DNA of 64,000 nt. Source: Chlorogloea sp. CCALA 695 (GTDB lineage: Bacteria > Cyanobacteriota > Cyanobacteriia > Cyanobacteriales > Chroococcidiopsidaceae). Shown here piece after piece: positions 7,723 to 32,396 of the stretch. A model generated the notes under the pieces. That model saw only the letters and a program-made list of their open reading frames with translations. It was not told the DNA's origin and made no database searches. The translations under genes were made by a program, and so were the position numbers. Positions within the stretch are counted from its first letter, which is position 1. Every line of letters starts with the position of its first letter. The stretch spans positions 1-64,000 of the forward strand of contig NZ_PVWN01000003.1 in assembly GCF_003003885.1 (NCBI RefSeq), given 5' to 3'.

Positions 7723-8769
7723 ATGTCTGACACCCTAACCAAGCTGACTTATCAGACTTTTCAAAATGGTAAAAACTACTTTGGTTTAGCTCATAAATAC
7801 TTAAGTTTCCAGGTAATGGGCTTAGTATCTCCCCAGTTGAAACCAAAACCATCGCCCCTTACTCCAGCATTACTACTGAAACTCCAAGCAAGATTAAACC
7901 AATTGCTAGAAGCAGACTGGCAAGATGCGGAGAAGGGAGTATACGCTCATAGTTTACTATTTGATAATCCTTGGTCTGACTTTTTCCGTTACTATCCTGA
8001 AGTTTGGCTAGATATGCCGCAAATTTGGCAGCGACTCAATGAGAAAAACTATCAAGATTTTTCTGTAGAGGTAGCCCAAGACGACTATCCTAATTACTAT
8101 TTGCAAAATTTTCACCACCAAACCAATGGTTATTTAAGCGATTCGTCAGCTAATTTATATGACTTGCAAGTTGAACTATTGTTTGGTGGTTCGGCTGATC
8201 CTATGCGGCGGAGAATTTTAGCACCTTTAAAAGCTAATTTAGCAGCTAATCCCAAGCCTCGGATACTAGATGTAGCTTGCGGTACGGGAAGAACATTGAA
8301 GTTATTACGAAACGCTTTCCCCCAATCGTCGCTATTTGGTACAGATTTGTCTTCCGCTTACTTGCGAAAGGCTAATCAAGAATTGTCGCAAATTCCTGGA
8401 GAATTACCGCAACTTCTCCAAGCTAATGCGGAGGAATTGCCCTATTTAGATAACTACTTTGATGCAGTAACTTGTGTATTTACATTCCACGAGTTGCCAA
8501 GTGCTGCACGTCAGCAGGTAATGGAGGAGTGTTTTAGAGTAGTGCAACCAGGGGGAGTTTTTGTAATTTGCGATTCTATTCAAATGTCAGATTCGCCGGA
8601 AATGTTGCCGATTATGGATAGTTTTCATGAAACCTTCCATGAACCTTACTATAAGCAGTACATTAGCGATGACTTGGTAGAACGGTTAGAAAAGGCGGGT
8701 TTTGAGGATATTACAACTGAGGTACATTTTATGAGTAAGTATTTGATTGCTCATAAAAAAGCAGCTTAA
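7723..8769 (+). CDS. Class I SAM-dependent methyltransferase
   Basis: 348 residues from the ATG at 7723; the frame also allows a TTG at 7705. The N-terminal half (MSDTLTKLTYQTFQNGKNYF) belongs to a conserved cyanobacterial type. The C-terminal half is a Rossmann methyltransferase: motif I ILDVACGTGRTLKLL, the acidic residue of FGTDLSSAYL, QANAEELPY, FDAVTCVFTFHELP, and the post-motif VVQPGGVFVICDS. The substrate is unknown; small lipophilic or quinone-like substrates are common for this fold. It stands alone and ends in a hairpin at 8775. Confidence 0.88.
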   Translation: MSDTLTKLTYQTFQNGKNYFGLAHKYLSFQVMGLVSPQLKPKPSPLTPALLLKLQARLNQLLEADWQDAEKGVYAHSLLFDNPWSDFFRYYPEVWLDMPQIWQRLNEKNYQDFSVEVAQDDYPNYYLQNFHHQTNGYLSDSSANLYDLQVELLFGGSADPMRRRILAPLKANLAANPKPRILDVACGTGRTLKLLRNAFPQSSLFGTDLSSAYLRKANQELSQIPGELPQLLQANAEELPYLDNYFDAVTCVFTFHELPSAARQQVMEECFRVVQPGGVFVICDSIQMSDSPEMLPIMDSFHETFHEPYYKQYISDDLVERLEKAGFEDITTEVHFMSKYLIAHKKAA

Positions 8770-8774
8770 TTTAG

Positions 8775-8798
8775 TAGAGGGGTTCAAAGCCCCCTCTA
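8775..8798 (+). terminator. Terminator-like hairpin
   Basis: Perfect 8-bp stem TAGAGGGG / CCCCTCTA with an 8-base loop, six bases after the methyltransferase stop. No long T-tract follows, so termination strength is uncertain. Confidence 0.5.
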
Positions 8799-8916
8799 TT
8801 GACGAGAGCCTATAAAATACATTGCATTGCCAATAAATCAAATAAAATACTATATGCTTACAGGCGTTAGAGTAGGTTTAAGCAATTAAAAGTAGAGTAT
8901 TTTAGGAGTTATAAGT

Positions 8917-9402
8917 ATGACTAATGCCGATGTGATCGCAAATCAACCCATAACCAGCGAACAAGTAATTAACAATCTAGTGGAAGAAGCGACATCCAGC
9001 CATATAGATGTAATTCAAACCGTAATTGCTAGTCTTGAACAAGACAACAGCGCAATGGTAAGCCAGACGGACTCCAACTATTTATGGAAATTTAAGTACG
9101 GTAGTGTTGAAGTATTTGTACAGCTTAGTGGACTAACAGACGAAGATACGATCGCAGTTTGGGCAAAGGTATTGAATCTACCAACCAAAAATGACGCGGG
9201 ATTGATGCGGAAGCTGTTAGAAATGAATTGGACTAATACCTTTGAAGCTTGTTTTGGCATCGATAAAGAGCAAGTAGTTGTCTTATCAAGCCGCACTTTA
9301 GCAGAATTGTCACCAGGGGAAATTTCTCGCATCATCACGATAGTAGCCACAATCGCCGATGACAATGACGAAGCTTTGCAAGCGGAATTTGGTGCAGCCT
9401 AA
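8917..9402 (+). CDS. YbjN domain-containing protein
   Basis: 161 residues, soluble and acidic. The core YLWKFKYGSVEVFVQLSG, then LMRKLLEMNWTNTFEACFGI and ELSPGEISRIITIV matches the YbjN / type-III-secretion-chaperone-like fold common in cyanobacteria. No enzymatic residues are apparent; family members are thought to bind proteins. A good start region (TTTAGGAGTTATAAGT before the ATG) supports the call. Its end overlaps the start of the lipoate-ligase-like gene, so the two are probably cotranscribed. Confidence 0.82.
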   Translation: MTNADVIANQPITSEQVINNLVEEATSSHIDVIQTVIASLEQDNSAMVSQTDSNYLWKFKYGSVEVFVQLSGLTDEDTIAVWAKVLNLPTKNDAGLMRKLLEMNWTNTFEACFGIDKEQVVVLSSRTLAELSPGEISRIITIVATIADDNDEALQAEFGAA

Positions 9403-10117
9403 ACCTTGTTGGCGGCTAATTCCACTGTTAGAAGCATCTGGGCTAATGCAAATGGCAATAGATAACTGGTTGGTAGAACAACATCAGTTAGGTTTACATC
9501 CGCCAACCTTGCGTTTTTATACTTGGTCGCCTGTAGCAATTTCCTTGGGCTATCATCAGTCTAAATTTCCCCCCCATTGGCAACAAATTACTTGGAATAG
9601 TCAGCCTGTAGACTTAGTACGTCGTCCTACGGGGGGAAGGGGGGTATTGCATCAAGGAGACTTAACTTATGCTGTGGTGACATCAGGATTAGACGGTAAT
9701 CGAATGCAGGTGTATCAGCAGCTTTGTAAGTTTTTGATTAGTGGGTGGCAAAGTTTAGGAGTAGAGTTGCAATATGGTGTAGCTGGGCGGGGATATATTC
9801 ATAACCCTAATTGTTTTGGTACTGCTACGGGCGCGGATTTGGTGTTACTTGATGGGAATAAGTTAATTGGTAGCGCTCAGTTAAAACGCGGTCAGGTAAT
9901 ATTGCAACATGGTTCAATGCGTTTAGCACCGGATCAGGCATTATTTGAGCAAGTGTTTGGTAAAGAGATTTTTCAGCCTATAAAATTACCTCTAATTGAA
10001 CCGACTGCTGTAGTAACAGCATTAACTACTGCTGCTAGCAATTGCTTTAACATTCAATTAGAGGTAAAACCTTTATCTGCGGTAGAGTGGGAAGCAATTT
10101 CATCTAGCCTTTCGTAG
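9392..10117 (+). CDS. Lipoate/biotin protein ligase family protein (LplA/LipM-like)
   Basis: About 241 residues. The fold is shown by the order RLIPLLEASGLMQMAIDNWL, FYTWSPVAISLGYHQ, VDLVRRPTGGRGVLHQGDLTYAVV, a second lysine motif GNKLIGSAQLKRG, and QHGSMRL. These are hallmarks of the BPL/LplA/LipB superfamily, which activates or transfers lipoyl or octanoyl groups onto carrier lysines. The GTG at 9392 gives the family's usual N-terminus and an 11-base overlap with the YbjN gene. The ATG at 9359 would add 11 residues that are antisense-like and unconserved in appearance. Whether it is a ligase or an octanoyltransferase is not decidable here. Confidence 0.85.
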   Translation: MQPKPCWRLIPLLEASGLMQMAIDNWLVEQHQLGLHPPTLRFYTWSPVAISLGYHQSKFPPHWQQITWNSQPVDLVRRPTGGRGVLHQGDLTYAVVTSGLDGNRMQVYQQLCKFLISGWQSLGVELQYGVAGRGYIHNPNCFGTATGADLVLLDGNKLIGSAQLKRGQVILQHGSMRLAPDQALFEQVFGKEIFQPIKLPLIEPTAVVTALTTAASNCFNIQLEVKPLSAVEWEAISSSLS

Positions 10118-11300
10118 ATTTAGCGATCGCACCTAATTGTAAACTAGGCGGAAAACTACCATCGTCTTTAACTCGCTTGATATCAGCGTCAGAAAATGGT
10201 TTATTGAGCTTTGCACCCACCACCCGAACAATATCGCCGCGATCGATTATTCCTGCTACAGCATCGGCGGGAGAAAGAACTACAATTCGGGGCAATTGCT
10301 GGGTTTCTAGCTTTTCAATTACTTCTACTAATGGTGTAGACTCTGTAACCGAGGGAACTTCTGTTAACGGATGCAAGATATCGTGCAAAGTTTTGTTTTC
10401 CCACTCGCTACGCTCTACAGCCCGTAAATCATCCACCGATACTATCCCCCGGTATCTGCCCTCAGAAGCGGCAAAATAGACCTCTGGGGCGGTGGTTTGG
10501 AGTAAATAAGAGTCTGCAAAGGAGCGCAGGCTTTGATCGGCATCAATCACCCTAAAATCGCTACTAATAGCATCATTAGCAACTAACTTGAGTAAAATTT
10601 CTTGCAAGGAAGTTACGCTATTGTAGGCGTTGGCATTGCGAATCCCAAACCAGCCTAGTAAAGCAATCCACAAGCCAGTAATTAATTCGCCAGTAAAAAA
10701 GTCTATGGCTAAACCAGCCGCGATCGCACTCCAACCTAAAATTACCCCCGCTCTTGCTGCCCAATGTACTGCTGTAAAGCGGTTTCCAGTAGCTTTCCAT
10801 ACGGCAGCTTTCAACACTTGTCCGCCATCTAAAGGTAAGCCAGGAATTAAGTTAAATAGGGCAAGAACTAAGTTTATTTTGGCTAAATCTCCCGCCATCT
10901 CACCGACTAAACTACCGCCTGGTAAAACTTGGTTAAGTACCGCCAAAATTACAAATAAACCAATACTAACGGCGGGCCCTGCGATCGCAACTTGAAAAGC
11001 GCCACCGGGAGTTTTTGATTCTTCTTCAATTGCGGCAATTCCACCAAAGAAAAATAAAGTAATCGATTTAACCTTAATTCCCTGATTTTGGGCTACTACA
11101 CTATGACCTAGTTCGTGCAGTAATACTGAACCAAACAGCAGTAGAGCCATTACTAGCCCCGCACTCCAAGATAGTACGCTACCCCATTGAGTATAAGCAA
11201 CGCCAAAATTTACAGTGGCGATCGCTAAAATCCCAAACCATAGCGGATCTAAAAATAAGGGTATTTCAAATAAAGATCCAACTCGCCAACCTGTTTGCAT
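10104..11300 (-). CDS. Site-2 protease (M50 family) with CBS domain pair
   Basis: 398 residues. The N-terminal 230 residues contain about six membrane segments with the zinc motif LLHELGHSV (His62, Glu63, His66) and the second motif LPLDGGQVLKA in a later helix. The C-terminal part is soluble with two CBS motifs (around residues 250-370), the usual arrangement in cyanobacterial rip-like proteases, where CBS pairs bind adenine nucleotides and may gate activity. The role is intramembrane cleavage of anti-sigma factors or membrane regulators; the substrate is unknown. The 3' end overlaps that of the convergent lipoate-ligase-like gene by 14 bp. Confidence 0.93.
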   Translation of the reverse strand: MQTGWRVGSLFEIPLFLDPLWFGILAIATVNFGVAYTQWGSVLSWSAGLVMALLLFGSVLLHELGHSVVAQNQGIKVKSITLFFFGGIAAIEEESKTPGGAFQVAIAGPAVSIGLFVILAVLNQVLPGGSLVGEMAGDLAKINLVLALFNLIPGLPLDGGQVLKAAVWKATGNRFTAVHWAARAGVILGWSAIAAGLAIDFFTGELITGLWIALLGWFGIRNANAYNSVTSLQEILLKLVANDAISSDFRVIDADQSLRSFADSYLLQTTAPEVYFAASEGRYRGIVSVDDLRAVERSEWENKTLHDILHPLTEVPSVTESTPLVEVIEKLETQQLPRIVVLSPADAVAGIIDRGDIVRVVGAKLNKPFSDADIKRVKDDGSFPPSLQLGAIAKSTKG

Positions 11301-26008: not shown

Positions 26009-26092
26009 ATTATATTTTTTTTGCAATCCCAAATTCTAGGCATTTTCAGACTCAATGTCACAATATCTACAGCCTGACATTATTTGATTAAT

Positions 26093-26329
26093 ATGACAGA
26101 AGTGATAATACGTGTCAACGAACAAGGAAAAGTTGTAATCCCAGCCAATTTACGCCAGGAATTAGGTTTAGTTTCTGGGTCAAAGTTGATAGTTCACTTG
26201 GAAGGTAGAAGAATTGTTTTAGAGCAGCCAGAGGATGTTTTTAGGCGGCTGCGTTCTACTTTTAATTCTCCCAAATCTTTAGTCGATGAGTTAGTTGAGG
26301 AGCGACCTACAGAGGCGAGACATGAGTAG
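26093..26329 (+). CDS. AbrB/VapB-type antitoxin (orphan)
   Basis: 78 residues from the ATG at 26093; a TTG at 26084 adds three. The N-terminal swapped-hairpin DNA-binding domain is clear: VIIRVNEQGKVVIPANLRQE and LGLVSGSKLIVHLEGRRIVL. The C-terminal part (SPKSLVDELVEERPTEARHE) is the toxin-binding tail. It overlaps by eight bases the start of a PIN-toxin gene that is cut off after 16 recognisable residues. The antitoxin is thus intact but its toxin is broken, leaving it with self-repression or cross-neutralisation at most. Confidence 0.88.
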   Translation: MTEVIIRVNEQGKVVIPANLRQELGLVSGSKLIVHLEGRRIVLEQPEDVFRRLRSTFNSPKSLVDELVEERPTEARHE

Positions 26330-26399
26330 TTATGTTTTAGATCCGTCAGCAATTTTAGCTTTGCTTAATTTGGTGTTGCCCAATTTTTGGAACGCCTAA
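26322..26399 (+). pseudogene. Truncated VapC-type PIN toxin
   Basis: ATG at 26322, overlapping the antitoxin stop, reads MSSYVLDPSAILALLN, the hallmark N-terminus of a VapC PIN domain with its first catalytic aspartate. The frame then runs into unrelated sequence and stops at 26397-26399 after 25 residues. The remaining acidic residues are missing, so there is no nuclease. Confidence 0.8.
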
Positions 26400-26514
26400 C
26401 AATTAGTCGATTTGAGCCATGTTTGTATATTCAGTCAATAACTCATCAAGAGTGTCTGTTTCTACTTGAGGACTCCAGATTAACTCAAACATGATCAAAA
26501 GGATAAGCTAAATT

Positions 26515-26661
26515 TCATTTTCCTAAGTCTGCAAGTTGAGGGGGAAGTTTGATATTACCTCTAGCCGTCCGCAACTGACCTTTTTCTAAACGCACTTTAC
26601 CTCTAATCATCGCTATTTGCGCCTGTCTTAGCGCTTCGGCTTTAGTTATTGATATTCTTAA
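26515..26661 (-). pseudogene. C-terminal fragment of a CHAT-domain protein
   Basis: The minus strand reads ITKAEALRQAQIAMIRGKVR, then LEKGQLRTARGNIKLPPQLADLGK and a stop at 26515. KAEALRQAQ-x-AMI and the LPP-x-LA-x-LG ending resemble the tail region of cyanobacterial CHAT proteins (caspase-like domain attached to TPR repeats), in which a final block of about 20 residues normally follows. No upstream coding region remains. This is a relic of a large gene. Confidence 0.6.
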
Positions 26662-26740
26662 CTACGGATATAGTTGGGACATTAGGGCTAAAGTCCCTTC
26701 ATAAATACCTCATTTAGGCTCAGTATAAGGCGAGGCTGCT

Positions 26741-26765
26741 AATAGGCAAGTAAAAACTGCCTATT
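26741..26765 (-). terminator. Hairpin after the DUF5615 toxin gene
   Basis: AATAGGCA and TGCCTATT form a perfect 8-bp stem with a 9-base loop, 15 bp beyond the stop of the minus-strand DUF5615 gene. Confidence 0.5.
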
Positions 26766-26779
26766 CTACTGTGACTTTT

Positions 26780-27169
26780 TTAATATTCTTGGATAGTAAA
26801 AACTTTTACAGACGTGCCTTTTTGATTCTGCTTTTTAATCCGAATTAGCCTGCCTTGCAAAGAGCGATCATCTTGTAAAATAAATTCATCAATTAGCTGG
26901 ACTTGTCCTTTATAATCTTGATCGTCTTTACAAATAATAATTCCACTATGAGCTTCGCCTTGTTGATGTAGAGAAACAAAATCGTCTCGATTAAGAGTAA
27001 TAATAATTTTATTTCTTTCTTGAGCAAACTTCAAAACGTTTTCATCGCTAATAGACTTATTCGCTTGCTGGGCTTCGTAAGAGGTTAAAACATCATAATC
27101 AAGCTGCCGTAGTTCTTCAATTATCGCTCTTGGAAGATTCTCGTCAGCATAAAATCTAATCGTTTTCAT
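26780..27169 (-). CDS. DUF5615 PIN-like toxin
   Basis: 129 residues. The N-terminus IRFYADENLPRAIIEELRQ carries the first acidic pair, and RNKIIITLNRDDFVSLH carries the second acidic centre. This is the Mut7-C/PIN-like fold of DUF5615, the usual toxin partner of DUF433. Members are predicted RNases. The ATG lies inside the end of the DUF433 gene (14-base overlap), so translation is coupled and the antitoxin comes first. The C-terminal part (ILQDDRSLQGRLIRI) is longer than in minimal members. Confidence 0.88.
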   Translation of the reverse strand: MKTIRFYADENLPRAIIEELRQLDYDVLTSYEAQQANKSISDENVLKFAQERNKIIITLNRDDFVSLHQQGEAHSGIIICKDDQDYKGQVQLIDEFILQDDRSLQGRLIRIKKQNQKGTSVKVFTIQEY

Positions 27170-27416
27170 CCCAGCTAGCGATTAATTGGTCAATTTCTTG
27201 TGAATATTGACCATAATATGACCAAGCTGCTGCTAAATCTTGTTGATTTAACCCTAGATAATTTCTCAGTAATTCTTCTTCCGATGCGCCCTGCTGACGA
27301 AAAGAAACCAGCGTCCAAACAGGGATACGAGTGTCTCGAATCCGTGCATTTCCGCCACAGACTCCCGCAGTTTTTTGAATTAGTTTATTCTGGTTGTGTT
27401 GTAGAAAAGATAACAT
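27156..27416 (-). CDS. DUF433 antitoxin
   Basis: 86 residues from the ATG at 27416; a TTG at 27425 is the alternative. GVCGGNARIRDTRIPVWTLV is the diagnostic DUF433 block, followed by GASEEELLRNYLGLNQQDL and an AAWSYY helix. DUF433 is a small winged-helix DNA-binding domain that neutralises and represses a DUF5615 toxin, which follows with a 14-base overlap. The pair looks intact and is a complete type II module. Confidence 0.87.
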   Translation of the reverse strand: MLSFLQHNQNKLIQKTAGVCGGNARIRDTRIPVWTLVSFRQQGASEEELLRNYLGLNQQDLAAAWSYYGQYSQEIDQLIASWDEND

Positions 27417-27568
27417 ACGCGCCAACTAGCTAAACAGCCAAACTCTTACAGTTTTTTATGAGTTCGTGTAGCATTACTGTTTACAGGTGTCAACACCGAT
27501 CTCTTGATAGTATAACGTTAGCTTTGAATGCGATATCGCCTTAGTTGGTTAATCAATCTCTTTAACCT

Positions 27569-29101
27569 ATGCCCTTATACTGCACCAAAAACCATATAAA
27601 CCAGTCAGGAAGCGGCTTTTGTACCAGTTGCGGCGAAGTTTTGTGGCTGCTACCTGGGTATATTCTCGCCAGTCGTTATCGAATTAGTCAACACCTCGGA
27701 CATGGTGGTTTTGGGCGCACTTATTTAGCAGAAGATTTGCATCGGTTTAACGAGCGCTGCGTACTCAAACAATTTGCCCCCCAAGAACAAGCAACTAGCC
27801 AGTTAGAAAAAGCTAAGATGTTGTTTGAACGTGAAGCCAGCGCCCTCTACAAGCTCTCACACCCGCAATTACCAGCATTTCGAGAGTTTTTTGCTGCCGA
27901 TTTGGGCAAGGGGGCAAAGGGATTGTTTTTAGCCCAAGATTACATTGAAGGCACAACTTATAGCGATTTACCCAAGCCGTTAAGTGAAGCAGAGGTGAGT
28001 AAGTTAATTAGCCAATTGCTGCCAGTATTAACTTACATTCACTCCCAAGGAACAATTCACCGCGATATCTCTCCTGATAATCTAATTTTACGCAACGAAG
28101 ATCGCCTGCCAGTATTAATTGATTTTGGCGGTGTAAAGCAATTAGTCACTGCAAGTATTAACCAAAACGGACAAGTATTGACTAAGTTGGGCAAACAAGG
28201 CTACGCTCCCGAAGAACAGTTAAGATCGGGGGAAGTGTTGCCTAGTAGCGATTTGTATGCGTTGGCGGTAACGGCGATAGTATTAGTTACAGGTAAAGAA
28301 CCAGACGAATTGTACGATAGCTATAAGGGAACTTGGCGTTGGGGTAAGGAAATTAGAGTTAGTGGCAAGTTAGAGAAAGTATTAAAAAAAATGCTGGCTT
28401 ATAAACAGTGCGATCGCTACAAATCGGCAGAGGATGTGGCAAAAGCTTTGAAATTACCTGCTAATTTACCAGAAATAACTAATCTCTCGCAAATCGCTAC
28501 AGTTAATGTAGTCGGACAAAAAAACTTGCCAACGCCCATCAGCAAACCCCAAGGCAATACACAAGTTTTGGTTGCGAGTCCTAGGTTTGGTTGGCTAAAA
28601 CCGATAGTTTTAAAAGTTGCAGGCGCAGGTTTGCTATTATTTGTAGTTATAAATGCCTTGCCTTTGCTAAGTTCGTTAAAGTCATTAGTACCTGTAATAG
28701 CACCTACTGTAACGGTTACAGACGCTCAAGTTGCAAACTTAGTTCGTCGCCGCCAAGCGCTCAAAATTAATTCAAGGTTTTTTAATACCACAGTAAACGA
28801 GGCTTTTTATCAGAAACACCCCAAGTTAAATCGCCGCAGTTTAAAACCTGCCCCTGAAGACGCAGATTTGAGGACTGATTGGTACAATATTGCCGAAGAC
28901 TTGCTGAATAAATTAGATAGTCTCAGTCCCGAAGCAAGGCTTAAACTAGGTACTTATAGCAAAACTAATCGCCATCAGTTTAAACAAGAGAGCGATCGCA
29001 AGTTTTATCAATGGTTTCCTCAACAGCGAGGTAAAAAACTTAATCCCAATACTTATGGTCAAATTTGGGAAGCGATCGCCTTTGATAAAATCCGCCTTTA
29101 G
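27569..29101 (+). CDS. Zinc-ribbon Ser/Thr protein kinase with membrane anchor (first of pair)
   Basis: 510 residues. A short zinc ribbon (Cys5, Cys18, Cys21; YCTKNH...FCTSCGE) precedes a Hanks-type kinase: glycine loop GHGGFGRTY (from residue 44), ATP lysine in CVLKQF (Lys67), catalytic IHRDISPDNLIL (Asp166), and LIDFGGVKQ. The catalytic loop has serine in place of the usual HRD-x-K lysine, common in this cyanobacterial subfamily. One membrane helix (about 346-368) leads to a C-terminal domain of about 120 residues, presumably on the far side of the membrane and acting as sensor. That domain is shared with the next kinase but not with any named family I know. Confidence 0.92.
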   Translation: MPLYCTKNHINQSGSGFCTSCGEVLWLLPGYILASRYRISQHLGHGGFGRTYLAEDLHRFNERCVLKQFAPQEQATSQLEKAKMLFEREASALYKLSHPQLPAFREFFAADLGKGAKGLFLAQDYIEGTTYSDLPKPLSEAEVSKLISQLLPVLTYIHSQGTIHRDISPDNLILRNEDRLPVLIDFGGVKQLVTASINQNGQVLTKLGKQGYAPEEQLRSGEVLPSSDLYALAVTAIVLVTGKEPDELYDSYKGTWRWGKEIRVSGKLEKVLKKMLAYKQCDRYKSAEDVAKALKLPANLPEITNLSQIATVNVVGQKNLPTPISKPQGNTQVLVASPRFGWLKPIVLKVAGAGLLLFVVINALPLLSSLKSLVPVIAPTVTVTDAQVANLVRRRQALKINSRFFNTTVNEAFYQKHPKLNRRSLKPAPEDADLRTDWYNIAEDLLNKLDSLSPEARLKLGTYSKTNRHQFKQESDRKFYQWFPQQRGKKLNPNTYGQIWEAIAFDKIRL

Positions 29102-29145
29102 GAAAGGGTGATAATAACAAATTAGTGATGTTTTCTTGACTGCCA

Positions 29146-31218
29146 ATGCCGCCTACAACTCCTCAATACTGCACCAAAGGACACGAAAACCCGTCAGGAA
29201 GTCGCTTTTGTCTTCATTGTGGCGAACAAATGGTATCAGCACCCGCACCCCAGGGTATTTATTCAGGGCTAATTTTGGGCAGTCGCTATCGAGTTATTCG
29301 CCAATTAGGACAAGGTGGTTTTGGGAAAACTTATCTAGCTGAAGATGTCAACCGCTTTAATGAATTGTGCGTACTAAAAGAATTTGCTCCCCAAGTGCAA
29401 ACTAGCGCGGTTTTACAAAAAGCTGAGGAATTATTTGCCCGTGAAGCTGGGGTACTTTATCAACTGCAACATCCCCAAATTCCCCGTTTCCGTGAATTAT
29501 TCCGCGTCAATGTTGAAACCAAAGACTATTTATTTTTAGTCCAAGATTATGTAGCAGGAAAAAACTTATTTTCTTTGCTGCACTCCCGTCAACCACCGCG
29601 ATTGACAGAAGCTGATGTAACGCAATTATTGCTAGATATTTTGCCAGTTTTAGAATACATCCATTCTTTGGGAGTAATTCACCGCGATATTTCCCCCGAT
29701 AACTTAATACTGCGAGATTCTGACTCGCGCCCGGTATTAATAGATTTTGGTGGAGTCAAGCAAATTGCCGCCACTGTATCCCAATTAGCCCAGTCTGAAG
29801 CCGGAAAAGCTGCCCCTCCAGCCACGTTACTCGGAAAGGTAGGGTATGCCCCTAACGAGCAAATGCGGACGGGTACAGTTTACCCTCACAGCGATTTGTA
29901 TGCCTTAGCAGTAACGGCTTTAGTATTGCTAACCGGAAAAGAACCCCAATCATTAATCGATCCGCGCACCTTATCTTGGCAGTGGCAACAAGAGGTAAAT
30001 GTTAGCAATACCTTAGCTACGGTACTAAATAAAATGTTGCAGCCAAAAATGAGCGATCGCTATCAAACTGCGCGAGAAGTTTGGAGTGCCTTAAATACTT
30101 CTACTCCCGAAAATACTTTAGCCATTGCGCCAGCTTATACCGGGGCTTCGGTAATTAATACTTATCAAGCACCAACCCCTGATAGTTATCCTAGCCCCCC
30201 CGGATTCCCCATCGGCAAAACAATACTCGGATTTTTGTTTTTATTCGGGTTAGCAAGTGCGACTTTTTGGGGAGTAGGTAGCCTAATGAAGTCTACTAAT
30301 GTTGTGCCAATTATCGAAACGCCATCCCCACCTATAGCAAGTGTTAGTCCATCAATTACACCCACACCTACACCCCAGTTACCCGCCGCCGAAAGAGCGA
30401 TCGCCGATGCTTTAATTACTAGACGACAAAATCTAGGCATTAGTGAAACCTATTACTTTAGCGTCATGGATCGGCTATTTTGGGCAAAATATCCCGATTG
30501 GCAAGGGCGCAAACTTACAAGCGATCCAGCTTACGCAGAGATACGGAGTCAATGGTATAAAATTGCGGATGAATTGCTCGATAAACTCGAAACAATTAGT
30601 GTTACTTCACGGCAAAACTTGGGAAACTATACTAAAGCCGATCGCGATCGCACGGTAAACGCAATTAATCAAGTATTTGTCGGTAGCCGCTCGTTGTACG
30701 ATCTTACCGATGCTGCCTTTTTTAACTTATTTCCCGACCAAAAAGGCAAAAATTTTGTTACTCAACCCGTCGGGCAAATTTGGAGTGCGATCGCCCAAGA
30801 CAAAGCTAGTAATATTATTGCAGGTACAGCTTACGAAAAAATTGTCTTTGCTCCCGATACCACTAGCACCCAACTAAGCGGTAGCCTCAATCCTGGTGAA
30901 GGAAAGGTTTTTGTAGCCCAGTTAGTGCAAGAGCAATTGATGAAACTCGATTTGCAAGCAGAAGCTCAAGTTTTGGTTTCTATCTATTCTCCTACAGGTA
31001 AAACTTCATTGTTAGAAGACTCTGCAACTCGCACTTGGTCGCAAACTTTACCTGAAGATGGCTACTACGAAATAGTTGTAGTTTCAAATGCCTCAACGCC
31101 GATGGATTATCAACTTAATTTGAGTGTAGAAGATAAATTACCGCAGCCCATAATTGAGCCAATCGCCCCCGACGCAACCCCAACACCGACACCTACAGAA
31201 ACCTTACCTAGCCAGTAA
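29146..31218 (+). CDS. Zinc-ribbon Ser/Thr protein kinase with membrane anchor and PPC-like domain (second of pair)
   Basis: 690 residues, paralogue of the kinase 44 bp upstream. It has a zinc ribbon (Cys9, Cys22, Cys25), glycine loop GQGGFGKTY, Lys78 in CVLKEF, catalytic VIHRDISPDNLIL and LIDFGGVKQ. A membrane helix (near residue 350-372) is followed by a threonine/proline linker (ITPTPTPQLP), the same C-terminal domain as in the first kinase (YFSVMDRLFWAKYPDW...RSQWYKIADELLDKL), then a beta-rich prepeptidase-C-terminal-like domain (IVFAPDTTSTQLSGSLNPGE; YYEIVVVSN) and a proline-threonine tail. It probably senses an extracytoplasmic cue; no substrate is evident. Confidence 0.92.
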   Translation: MPPTTPQYCTKGHENPSGSRFCLHCGEQMVSAPAPQGIYSGLILGSRYRVIRQLGQGGFGKTYLAEDVNRFNELCVLKEFAPQVQTSAVLQKAEELFAREAGVLYQLQHPQIPRFRELFRVNVETKDYLFLVQDYVAGKNLFSLLHSRQPPRLTEADVTQLLLDILPVLEYIHSLGVIHRDISPDNLILRDSDSRPVLIDFGGVKQIAATVSQLAQSEAGKAAPPATLLGKVGYAPNEQMRTGTVYPHSDLYALAVTALVLLTGKEPQSLIDPRTLSWQWQQEVNVSNTLATVLNKMLQPKMSDRYQTAREVWSALNTSTPENTLAIAPAYTGASVINTYQAPTPDSYPSPPGFPIGKTILGFLFLFGLASATFWGVGSLMKSTNVVPIIETPSPPIASVSPSITPTPTPQLPAAERAIADALITRRQNLGISETYYFSVMDRLFWAKYPDWQGRKLTSDPAYAEIRSQWYKIADELLDKLETISVTSRQNLGNYTKADRDRTVNAINQVFVGSRSLYDLTDAAFFNLFPDQKGKNFVTQPVGQIWSAIAQDKASNIIAGTAYEKIVFAPDTTSTQLSGSLNPGEGKVFVAQLVQEQLMKLDLQAEAQVLVSIYSPTGKTSLLEDSATRTWSQTLPEDGYYEIVVVSNASTPMDYQLNLSVEDKLPQPIIEPIAPDATPTPTPTETLPSQ

Positions 31219-31309: not shown

Positions 31310-31681
31310 TTAGGCTGCTTGCGAAGTTGATACAGGGTAATCTAACGCTCGCCAAGCTGCGACTCCGCCTCTTAATTCCGATACATTCTGAAACCCTGCA
31401 TCCCGCAATAGTGACGCAGCAAAAGCTGTTTCTTCATCGGTTTCGCCGTAAATATAAATATCGCGGCTGTTTTCTAAAGATGATTTCGCGCGATTTACAA
31501 GTTCTGACACGGGCATAGGAATAGCACCTAGTATATGCCGAAAATTAAATTCTGTGCGATCGCGTGCGTCAATAATTGTCAATGCTGGTTCGCCCCAATC
31601 TAACCTTGATTTCAATTCAAAAACTAGCGACTTAGCCTTAAATGGTGGCGGTGTGGGGATCATTCCTAAAAACTGAACCAT
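31310..31681 (-). CDS. Rhodanese-like protein lacking the catalytic cysteine (1)
   Basis: 123 residues with a single rhodanese domain: LTIIDARDRTEFNFRHILGA, then DIYIYGETDEETAFAA where the sulfur-accepting cysteine is expected, and VSELRGGVAAWRALDYPV. Glycine (Gly79) stands at the catalytic position, so persulfide chemistry is unlikely and a binding role is more plausible. It is a close paralogue of the gene at 31944-32396 on the same strand. Such Cys-less copies are, as far as I know, common in cyanobacteria. Confidence 0.85.
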   Translation of the reverse strand: MVQFLGMIPTPPPFKAKSLVFELKSRLDWGEPALTIIDARDRTEFNFRHILGAIPMPVSELVNRAKSSLENSRDIYIYGETDEETAFAASLLRDAGFQNVSELRGGVAAWRALDYPVSTSQAA

Positions 31682-31851
31682 AACTATTACATTTATTAAT
31701 TTTCTTTTTCATAATGTAACAAAAAACTTTAATGTTTACAAAGTTTTGGGAATAATTCTCAGAATTTTGGGTCATTAATGAGTAACAATCTACTTATCTA
31801 TATTTATTTATTGTCATAGTGTGTCCTGTCGTACACTTATTCAAATAAATA

Positions 31852-31879
31852 ACCCACCTCTAAAAGTCTAAAGGTGGGT
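31852..31879 (-). terminator. Terminator between the two rhodanese-like genes
   Basis: ACCCACCT and AGGTGGGT form a perfect 8-bp stem; on the minus strand it is followed by TTATTTATTTG. It ends transcripts from the upstream rhodanese-like gene. Confidence 0.7.
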
Positions 31880-31943
31880 ATTTTAAGCCCTGTTATTTTA
31901 ATTAAATGCAGTTGGACTATTAATTTTTAGGAAAAAACGTTAT

Positions 31944-32396
31944 CTACACGTCTTTCTTTAGAGTTTCAGCGTGATTTTGCAATCTAGATACTACATTGTA
32001 GTCATCCGCACCCGCCGGAGTTCTCGACTCGATAATGCCTTCAGTAGGCCCGCCGATGGCTTTCCATGCTGGTAAACCACCTTTTAGCTCAGATATATGC
32101 TCAAATCCAACACTGCGGAGTTGTTGGGCGACAAGGGAAGTTTCTTCATCGGTTTCGCCATAAATGTAAATATCGCGACTAGGAGCAATAGTATTTTTGG
32201 CAATTTCTACCACTTTATCTTTAGACATTGACATAGCGCCCATGATATGCCCATCATTGTAGACCATGCGATCGCTCACATCAAGAATTGTAAAAGCAGG
32301 TTCTCCCCACTCTAGACGGGATTTCAGTTCGTGAGCATTGGATTGCGAATCGATGGGTGGCTGGGAGGGAATAATGTCACCGATAGGATTATTCAT
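31944..32396 (-). CDS. Rhodanese-like protein lacking the catalytic cysteine (2)
   Basis: 150 residues. The rhodanese domain reads FTILDVSDRMVYNDGHIMGA, DIYIYGETDEETSLVAQQLR, and ISELKGGLPAWKAIGGPTEG. As in its neighbour, the active-site cysteine is replaced by glycine (Gly80), while IYGETDEET is retained almost exactly, implying a conserved non-catalytic job. A 30-residue C-terminal tail (RTPAGADDYNVVSRLQNHAE) is extra. It is divergent from desB across 311 bp. Confidence 0.86.
   Translation of the reverse strand: MNNPIGDIIPSQPPIDSQSNAHELKSRLEWGEPAFTILDVSDRMVYNDGHIMGAMSMSKDKVVEIAKNTIAPSRDIYIYGETDEETSLVAQQLRSVGFEHISELKGGLPAWKAIGGPTEGIIESRTPAGADDYNVVSRLQNHAETLKKDV

Follow-up and report, generated by a model that had tools for sequence, protein, structure and literature searches.

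A two-half helical domain shared by tandem receptor-like Ser/Thr kinases of Chlorogloea sp. CCALA 695, and its relatives on degenerate kinases or without a kinase

Two adjacent genes of the cyanobacterium Chlorogloea sp. CCALA 695, referred to here as K1 and K2, lie in the first 64,000 nucleotides of contig NZ_PVWN01000003.1 (this whole stretch is the window; the host genome is 5.2 Mb). Taken as a whole, the evidence favors, with somewhat better than even confidence, a reading of K1 and K2 as paralogous receptor-like Ser/Thr kinases with an outer module that also works free of a kinase. The core of that module is a helical domain of two three-helix halves (predicted) that is named by no library searched. 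Its relatives are found on full-length kinases, on degenerate kinases and, in several lineages, on a membrane helix with no kinase at all. An initial annotation of the window, made from the letters alone, had proposed a shared and undescribed extracytoplasmic sensor built of two half-repeats; the domain and its half-repeats are borne out below, and "sensor" is best kept as a putative role.

The helical domain

K1 and K2 share homologous C-terminal parts: when the host genome is searched with the K1 domain, the only other protein matched up to E 10 is K2 (E 2.5e-18, 39% identity). The homology proposed in the initial annotation therefore stands, but the domain is longer than the ~110 residues given there. 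Its full length is ~145 residues, and the window's K1 copy has ~125 owing to a deletion of 14-18 residues (the number varies with the alignment) between the halves, which is also seen in its relatives L001, L002 and L003. (Labels are G for genome, L for locus, g for genus and f for family.) Alignment A1 holds 33 members, a non-redundant choice out of 83 matched entries, some of them duplicated; G81, P118, Q132 and W134 (K2-domain numbering) are invariant in it and 15 further columns nearly so. The two halves are recognizably repeats: comparison of their profiles by hhalign yields a probability of 90.5 and a score of 30.7, and 60 column shuffles of half 2 score at most 15.6. Six more kinases (L116, L117, L118, L119, L121 and L122; E 5.1e-19 to 1.9e-8) stop within 10 residues past half 1, which implies that half 1 can occur by itself. 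All six have the HRD motif and none has a beta part.

The AlphaFold2 model of the domain alone (input of seven sequences) has pLDDT 85.7 and pTM 0.81, the five models ranging from 72.6 to 85.7. It places two three-helix halves at residues 2-18, 22-36 and 49-69, and at 85-98, 105-116 and 131-146, with a short helix at 74-78 between them; a longer model repeats the same layout. The predicted fold is thus consistent, and neither an inconsistent fold nor a match to a named domain (either of which the initial annotation took to count against a new domain) is seen. The helical domain of the window proteins has no Pfam or NCBIfam family at cut-off, and among the 33 members no library family matches more than three (curated cut-offs were set against the first of the 33 only). 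Searches of the PDB by sequence and by fold are likewise unconvincing: the best sequence match is a WXG100 protein (4i0x, E 0.0043 over 44 residues), Foldseek returns nothing at E <= 0.001, with globins heading its list from E 0.29 upward, and VIA-align reaches a Z of at most 5.0 over 64 residues among 624 chains, which does not prove that the fold is new. The WXG100 family TIGR03930 matches 3 of the 33 members (best E 0.0091; for the K2 domain 16.2 bits over 41 residues, against a cut-off of 44.85) and FliX matches one (E 0.0003 and 0.00021). These weak matches, and those to bHLH, globins and the like, were dropped; they reach at most 3 of the 33 members or cover one helix pair only. In the literature searched for such kinases, domains and gene names, from which subscription papers are mostly absent, no description of the helical domain was found.

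The two genes and their kinases

Both genes are on the + strand; 44 bases separate the K1 stop from the K2 start, and the two proteins are probably made from one operon. Their features, in window positions, are as follows.

27569..29101, +: K1, Hanks-type kinase with a single predicted membrane helix and a C-terminal two-half helical domain (510 aa)
27581..27634, +: K1 zinc-ribbon-like motif CTKNHINQSGSGFCTSCG (by eye; no zinc-ribbon family match in K1)
28058..28081, +: K1 catalytic loop HRDISPDN (aa 164-171)
28604..28660, +: K1 predicted membrane helix (hydropathy; aa 346-364)
28721..28915, +: K1 domain, leading helix and first half-repeat (alignment, half-repeat comparison)
28991..29098, +: K1 domain, second half-repeat, the linker between halves shortened (alignment, half-repeat comparison)
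29146..31218, +: K2, Hanks-type kinase with a single predicted membrane helix, the helical domain and a PPC-like beta-sandwich (690 aa)
29170..29223, +: K2 zinc-ribbon-like motif CTKGHENPSGSRFCLHCG (by eye; Zn_Ribbon_1 at E 0.006, below cut-off)
29680..29703, +: K2 catalytic loop HRDISPDN (aa 179-186)
30223..30279, +: K2 predicted membrane helix (hydropathy; aa 360-378)
30388..30588, +: K2 domain, leading helix and first half-repeat (model helices 1-3; half-repeat comparison, model)
30688..30819, +: K2 domain, second half-repeat (half-repeat comparison, model)
30820..31134, +: K2 C-terminal beta-sandwich, PPC/GOLD/PliG-like predicted fold (predicted model, fold comparison)

Both proteins match Pkinase (K1: E 2.1e-27, 96.6 bits; K2: E 3.6e-33, 115.5 bits; Pfam cut-off 31.7), and each has, as had been proposed, one predicted membrane helix. 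The glycine loop (GHGGFGRTY in K1, GQGGFGKTY in K2), the VLK motif and DFG are intact in both. The catalytic loop reads HRDISPDN where HRDxKPxN is usual, in agreement with the initial annotation, so that its Asp and Asn are present and its lysine is replaced by Ser; relatives that keep HRD have Ser, Ala, Thr or Cys at this position. In cyanobacterial Ser/Thr kinases (STKs) that lysine is reported at 86.7% (PMC2176072).

A zinc ribbon had been assigned to both N-termini. The underlying C-x3-H...C-x2-C arrangement can be seen by eye in both, but the ribbon is a motif call only, because the profiles stay below their curated cut-offs: for K2, Zn_Ribbon_1 has E 0.006 (16.8 bits, cut-off 25) and 4Cys_prefix_kin has E 0.071 (13.4 bits, cut-off 24), and for K1 neither is listed.

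The beta-sandwich of K2

Nine strands are predicted after the helical domain of K2. Among the 50 VIA matches listed for them, Z is 10.4-15.3 over 86-115 residues; PliG (4dzg: Z 15.3, 103 residues, rmsd 1.9; Foldseek E 5.7e-9), the collagen-binding domain of ColG (1nqj: Z 12.0, 92 residues, rmsd 2.1), the GOLD domain of TMED1 (7rrm: Z 12.0, 93 residues, rmsd 2.0) and PPC (5sv5: Z 11.4, 98 residues, rmsd 2.5) are among them. The predicted fold is thus like that of these domains, whereas identity in the PliG, ColG and GOLD rows is just 14-19% and the genes have no inhibitor or protease context. The Pfam PPC family (PF04151) is above cut-off neither in window K2 nor in any of six relatives, its single match being to L096 (E 0.0018, 19.5 bits, cut-off 25.9); Pfam GOLD matches two of the six (E 0.0069 and 0.0019). 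Of the initial proposal that a PPC domain is separate from the helical domain and confined to K2, what holds on the predicted model is a PPC-like fold, set apart from the helical domain, for the last domain of K2; membership of Pfam PPC does not.

Decay and absence of the kinase

The initial annotation also called for a survey of the carriers of the domain. Other kinases do carry it, but it is not an input domain of kinases only, since in several lineages its kinase is degenerate or absent. In family f23, whose small genomes would be compatible with picocyanobacteria, all eight kinase-bearing proteins that were examined (L086-L089, L104, L105, L113 and L115) have HGD in place of HRD and Arg in place of the VAIK lysine. 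L048, L052, L098, L103, L109 and L110 are further degenerate kinases. L049 and L096 are full-length and keep HRD and DFG with Gln at the VAIK lysine, so that by sequence their kinases are perhaps impaired (the tree label "active" admits this Gln).

Eight of the genes examined consist of a membrane helix, the helical domain and the beta part only: L090 and L112 in f23, L091-L093 in g22, L094 and L095 in g32, and L108 in g5. No kinase remains were found directly upstream of them by tblastn with five kinase queries (L091, L108 and L112 hold just 1.1-1.2 kb of upstream DNA); L092 has a separate kinase ~3.4 kb upstream, at 23-27% identity, and L090 has a single 36-residue kinase match that overlaps its own N-terminus. 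Four more listed frames of 327-334 aa (G357, G097, G235 and G268) resemble these genes by listing. The kinase-less genes are under purifying selection, because the ratios of nonsynonymous to synonymous substitution rates (dN/dS) of their helical domains are 0.11-0.28: among three pairs of close relatives 0.23 for L094/L095, 0.28 for L092/L093 and 0.11 for L091/L092, and in a fourth pair 0.24, near saturation, for L112/L090. On the tree, the label "none" requires six changes, one of them from the broken gene L097, which is not truly kinase-less because kinase DNA sits directly upstream of it; if the kinase is ancestral, the tree would put its losses at about five.

In G139 and G189 (f23) the domain protein is the sole Pkinase match above the Pfam cut-off. 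G257, G266 and G316 have no Pkinase match above cut-off and keep the domain, on a degenerate kinase in G316 and without a kinase in G257 and G266; weak matches in these three (E about 5e-4) are probably ABC1-type proteins. Only the membrane helix, domain and beta part are kept in G183 and G147, identified as the spheroid bodies of Rhopalodia gibberula and Epithemia turgida, that is, the reduced, non-photosynthetic endosymbionts of diatoms, and a full-length K2 (L096, whose VAIK lysine is replaced by Gln) is kept in G143, their free-living relative Cyanothece PCC 8801 (PMC5638926).

Several loci in this set are themselves broken: K1 and K2 in L097 (G385, 7964-10658), K2 in G215 (L099, 6554-8675) and the kinase-less gene in G095 (L111). 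In members from f23, g22 and g32 (L086-L096) the membrane helix ends in a similar pattern of small residues and GW, possibly a helix-packing motif.

Distribution and tandem order

The A1 profile matches 123 of the 386 sampled genomes of the phylum (E <= 0.001), and all 123 are within the window's class or closer. At most 10 candidates were scored per genome in this search, so weak extra copies may go undetected; a repeat over nearly the same genomes matched 122 of 386, and scoring of every candidate in 28 chosen genomes matched 15 at E <= 1. Beyond the phylum, the search used exact short K1 peptides alone (84,980 species) and thus reaches close relatives only; it found three loci, in metagenome-assembled genomes (MAGs) titled Tatlockia, Aliterella and Chroococcus. 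No plasmid record matched the outer part of K2 at E <= 1e-3, and no viral contig matched the one query used. Horizontal spread was considered for the Tatlockia-titled locus L001 (a Legionellaceae MAG) and was rejected; the contig, 5.7 kb long and 90-97% identical to the window over K1 and K2, is probably a misbinned cyanobacterial one.

Tandem order was counted in the best-matching 74 genomes, down to G334, weaker rows being left out. Of the 45 two-copy genomes, 40 have both copies on the same strand, one within 2.5 kb upstream of the other and the two domains separated by 1.2-1.8 kb. On the tree, which is unrooted and displayed with a midpoint root, the 13 rows with <=60 residues past the domain form one clade (support 100/99). 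(This group is labeled K1noPPC; its missing beta part is so by construction, and the grouping in a single clade is the result. One of the 13 rows, a K1 row, comes from the broken gene L097.) Gene position in the single-contig f23 genomes (0.12-0.18 Mb in many, reminiscent of gene numbers like sync_0122) was given no weight, since others have the gene at 1.7-2.7 Mb.

A proposed mechanism and its alternatives

We infer the outside location, pairing, envelope partner and direction of signaling of these proteins from the features above. The order of kinase, one helix and domain suggests that the kinase lies in the cytoplasm and the two three-helix half-repeats outside it, joined in K2 by the PPC-like beta-sandwich. 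This outer module (helical domain and beta-sandwich) would bind a partner in the cell envelope, and outer modules would form pairs by way of the helical domain, K1 joining K2 in genomes that have both. Pairing or partner binding would bring the kinase domains together for activation in trans. Because several lineages kept the outer module after the kinase decayed or disappeared, it probably also has a kinase-independent job, most simply as a membrane-tethered scaffold or adaptor of the envelope. The outer module can best be read as a conserved and probably envelope-facing unit that reports to a kinase usually, not always. A bolder version, somewhat short of an even chance, would have selection act on the outer module as a membrane-tethered envelope factor (perhaps in pilus or pilin maturation). 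The kinase would then be an optional cytoplasmic regulator that was duplicated in large-genome lineages, became a pseudokinase in picocyanobacteria with their small genomes, and was lost some five times, the extreme cases being diatom endosymbionts and genomes in which no Hanks kinase can be recognized.

A number of observations weigh against this account of receptor-like kinases with a separable outer module. The pseudokinase parts are conserved too, four pairs giving dN/dS of 0.18-0.30 for them, and in one of these four, L087/L104, the helical domain, at 0.36, is less constrained than the pseudokinase, at 0.28; the outer part is therefore not the whole story. The topology comes from hydropathy and domain order, and pairing of K1 with K2 is suggested by gene order alone, adjacency being missing in 5 of the 45 two-copy genomes (G334, G174, G060, G008 and G197). 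Many of the tree's inner branches have weak support (27 of 57 are starred), the longer structure model is weak as well (pLDDT 77, pTM 0.60), and the seven sequences behind the models come from two paralogue groups only. In the gene maps of the relatives' loci, no neighbor was recognized as conserved across lineages.

The alternative that comes closest to an even chance, while falling a little short of it, identifies the K2 family with that of SpkE (Slr1443): its outer module would contact type IV pilus assembly or outer-side enzymes that modify pilin, and an intact kinase would tune the process. The catalytic Asp is reported missing from five STKs, Slr1443 among them, and the single STKs of three marine Synechococcus strains and of Prochlorococcus MIT9313 cluster with Slr1443 (Zhang et al. 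2007, PMC2176072). Since this clustering goes together with the domain protein being the sole above-cut-off Pkinase of G139 and G189, SpkE is, judged from published descriptions, a likely Synechocystis member of the K2 family. Reviews assign Slr1443 a role in pilus biogenesis and pilin modification (citing Kim et al. 2004) and a cold response and kinase activity (citing Zorina et al. 2014; PMC11863333, PMC7076178 for both), and its mutant grows more slowly in day/night cycles (PMC10651672). On the other hand, reports on SpkE activity conflict, one group finding it inactive and another active; the three g5 genomes searched have 10-17 Pkinase matches (E <= 0.001) as against the seven Hanks-type kinases named for PCC 6803, so that g5 is at most a candidate for Synechocystis; and the outer module is kept by diatom spheroid bodies too.

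The remaining alternatives concern what the helical domain is and where it came from. It could be a mere dimerizing stalk that spaces a ligand-binding PPC-like domain off the membrane. PPC, GOLD and collagen-binding folds often bind proteins or polymers, and the helical domain is all-helical and membrane-proximal. The K1 lineage, a single clade, stops at the helical domain with no beta part, as do the six half-domain kinases, and the domain is well conserved (15 near-invariant and 4 invariant columns), all of which makes a stalk rather unlikely. That the domain instead belongs, as a divergent branch, to a helical family already known but overlooked by the libraries is doubtful. Weak matches of that sort do exist (WXG100, through 4i0x and TIGR03930; FliX; the globins of Foldseek), but no family reaches more than 3 of 33 members, the WXG100 matches span ~40 residues of the first half only, and the VIA Z values end at 5.0 over 64 residues. 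Finally, the outer module might be older and independent, the kinases having joined it later. The tree is unrooted and kinase-less forms stand at about five places in it, but these rows sit, on starred branches, among rows with full-length or degenerate kinases, intermediate states of decay exist, and every half-domain form found has an HRD kinase. Loss is simpler than late attachment because of this mixing of rows and these intermediate states, and an origin of the module before the kinase is considered highly improbable.

Relation to known systems

By the same inference, SpkE and the single marine Synechococcus STK (PMC2176072) would be degenerate forms of the K2 family; the window's K1 and K2 differ from SpkE in retaining the catalytic motifs save the HRDxK lysine. 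In layout (a Hanks kinase in the cytoplasm, a single membrane helix and a C-terminal module outside) K1 and K2 are like the PknB/PASTA kinases (NF033483), whose kinase part matches them with E 1.6e-29 and 4.3e-31 (103 and 109 bits, far under the curated cut-off of 450). They differ in having HRDIS, not HRDxK, and an outer module made of the two-half helical domain, alone or followed by a PPC-like sandwich; no PASTA repeat is listed for either up to E 10 in the Pfam profile search (HMMER filters on).

The cbSTKI-other class holds 107 STKs with "long unidentified C-terminal domains" (Zhang et al. 2007, PMC2176072). It is like K1 and K2 in combining a kinase with an unassigned C-terminal part and in including adjacently numbered genes such as alr2411-alr2412 of Anabaena PCC 7120; it differs in being defined by the absence of known domains. 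The alr2411-alr2412 pair, which is lowered in a furA mutant (PMC12282138), or alr4366/alr4368 of the same strain could be the candidate K1/K2 there. The cyanobacterial CP1 pseudokinases described in a 2025 review of bacterial pseudokinases (PMC12599244) have no membrane helices, and pseudokinases of the K1/K2 family differ from them in this respect.

Surroundings of K1 and K2

Upstream of K1 (window 26078-27425) an AbrB-like gene on the + strand and a PIN-like/DUF433-like pair on the - strand resemble, by eye, a cassette of toxin-antitoxin type. Directly downstream of K2 (window 31310-32396) are, also by eye, two similar rhodanese-like genes in tandem on the - strand. The scanned region has a single terminator-like site, at window 28619-28634 within K1; shuffled versions average 4.9 such sites, more than the 1 seen here.

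Genes resembling egtB occur close to the domain gene in several lineages, and a link to ergothioneine was considered. It was dropped as chance and single-linkage, because the matches in g22 seem to go with a second kinase that carries a different domain and because orientation and distance vary. Two distant lineages have egtB/egtD-like genes at most 7 kb from the domain gene (L043, 2413-4866; L088, 9808-10977), and these are read as chance as well.

Significance

Roughly one in three of the genomes sampled in the phylum carries, on kinases, a domain that the libraries searched do not name, and that domain is a defined, foldable piece for testing. The outer part is kept at every stage from a full kinase through a pseudokinase to none; such a series would tell a role in the envelope apart from one in phosphorylation, and it offers a possible reason why a kinase without its catalytic aspartate, SpkE, has a mutant phenotype.

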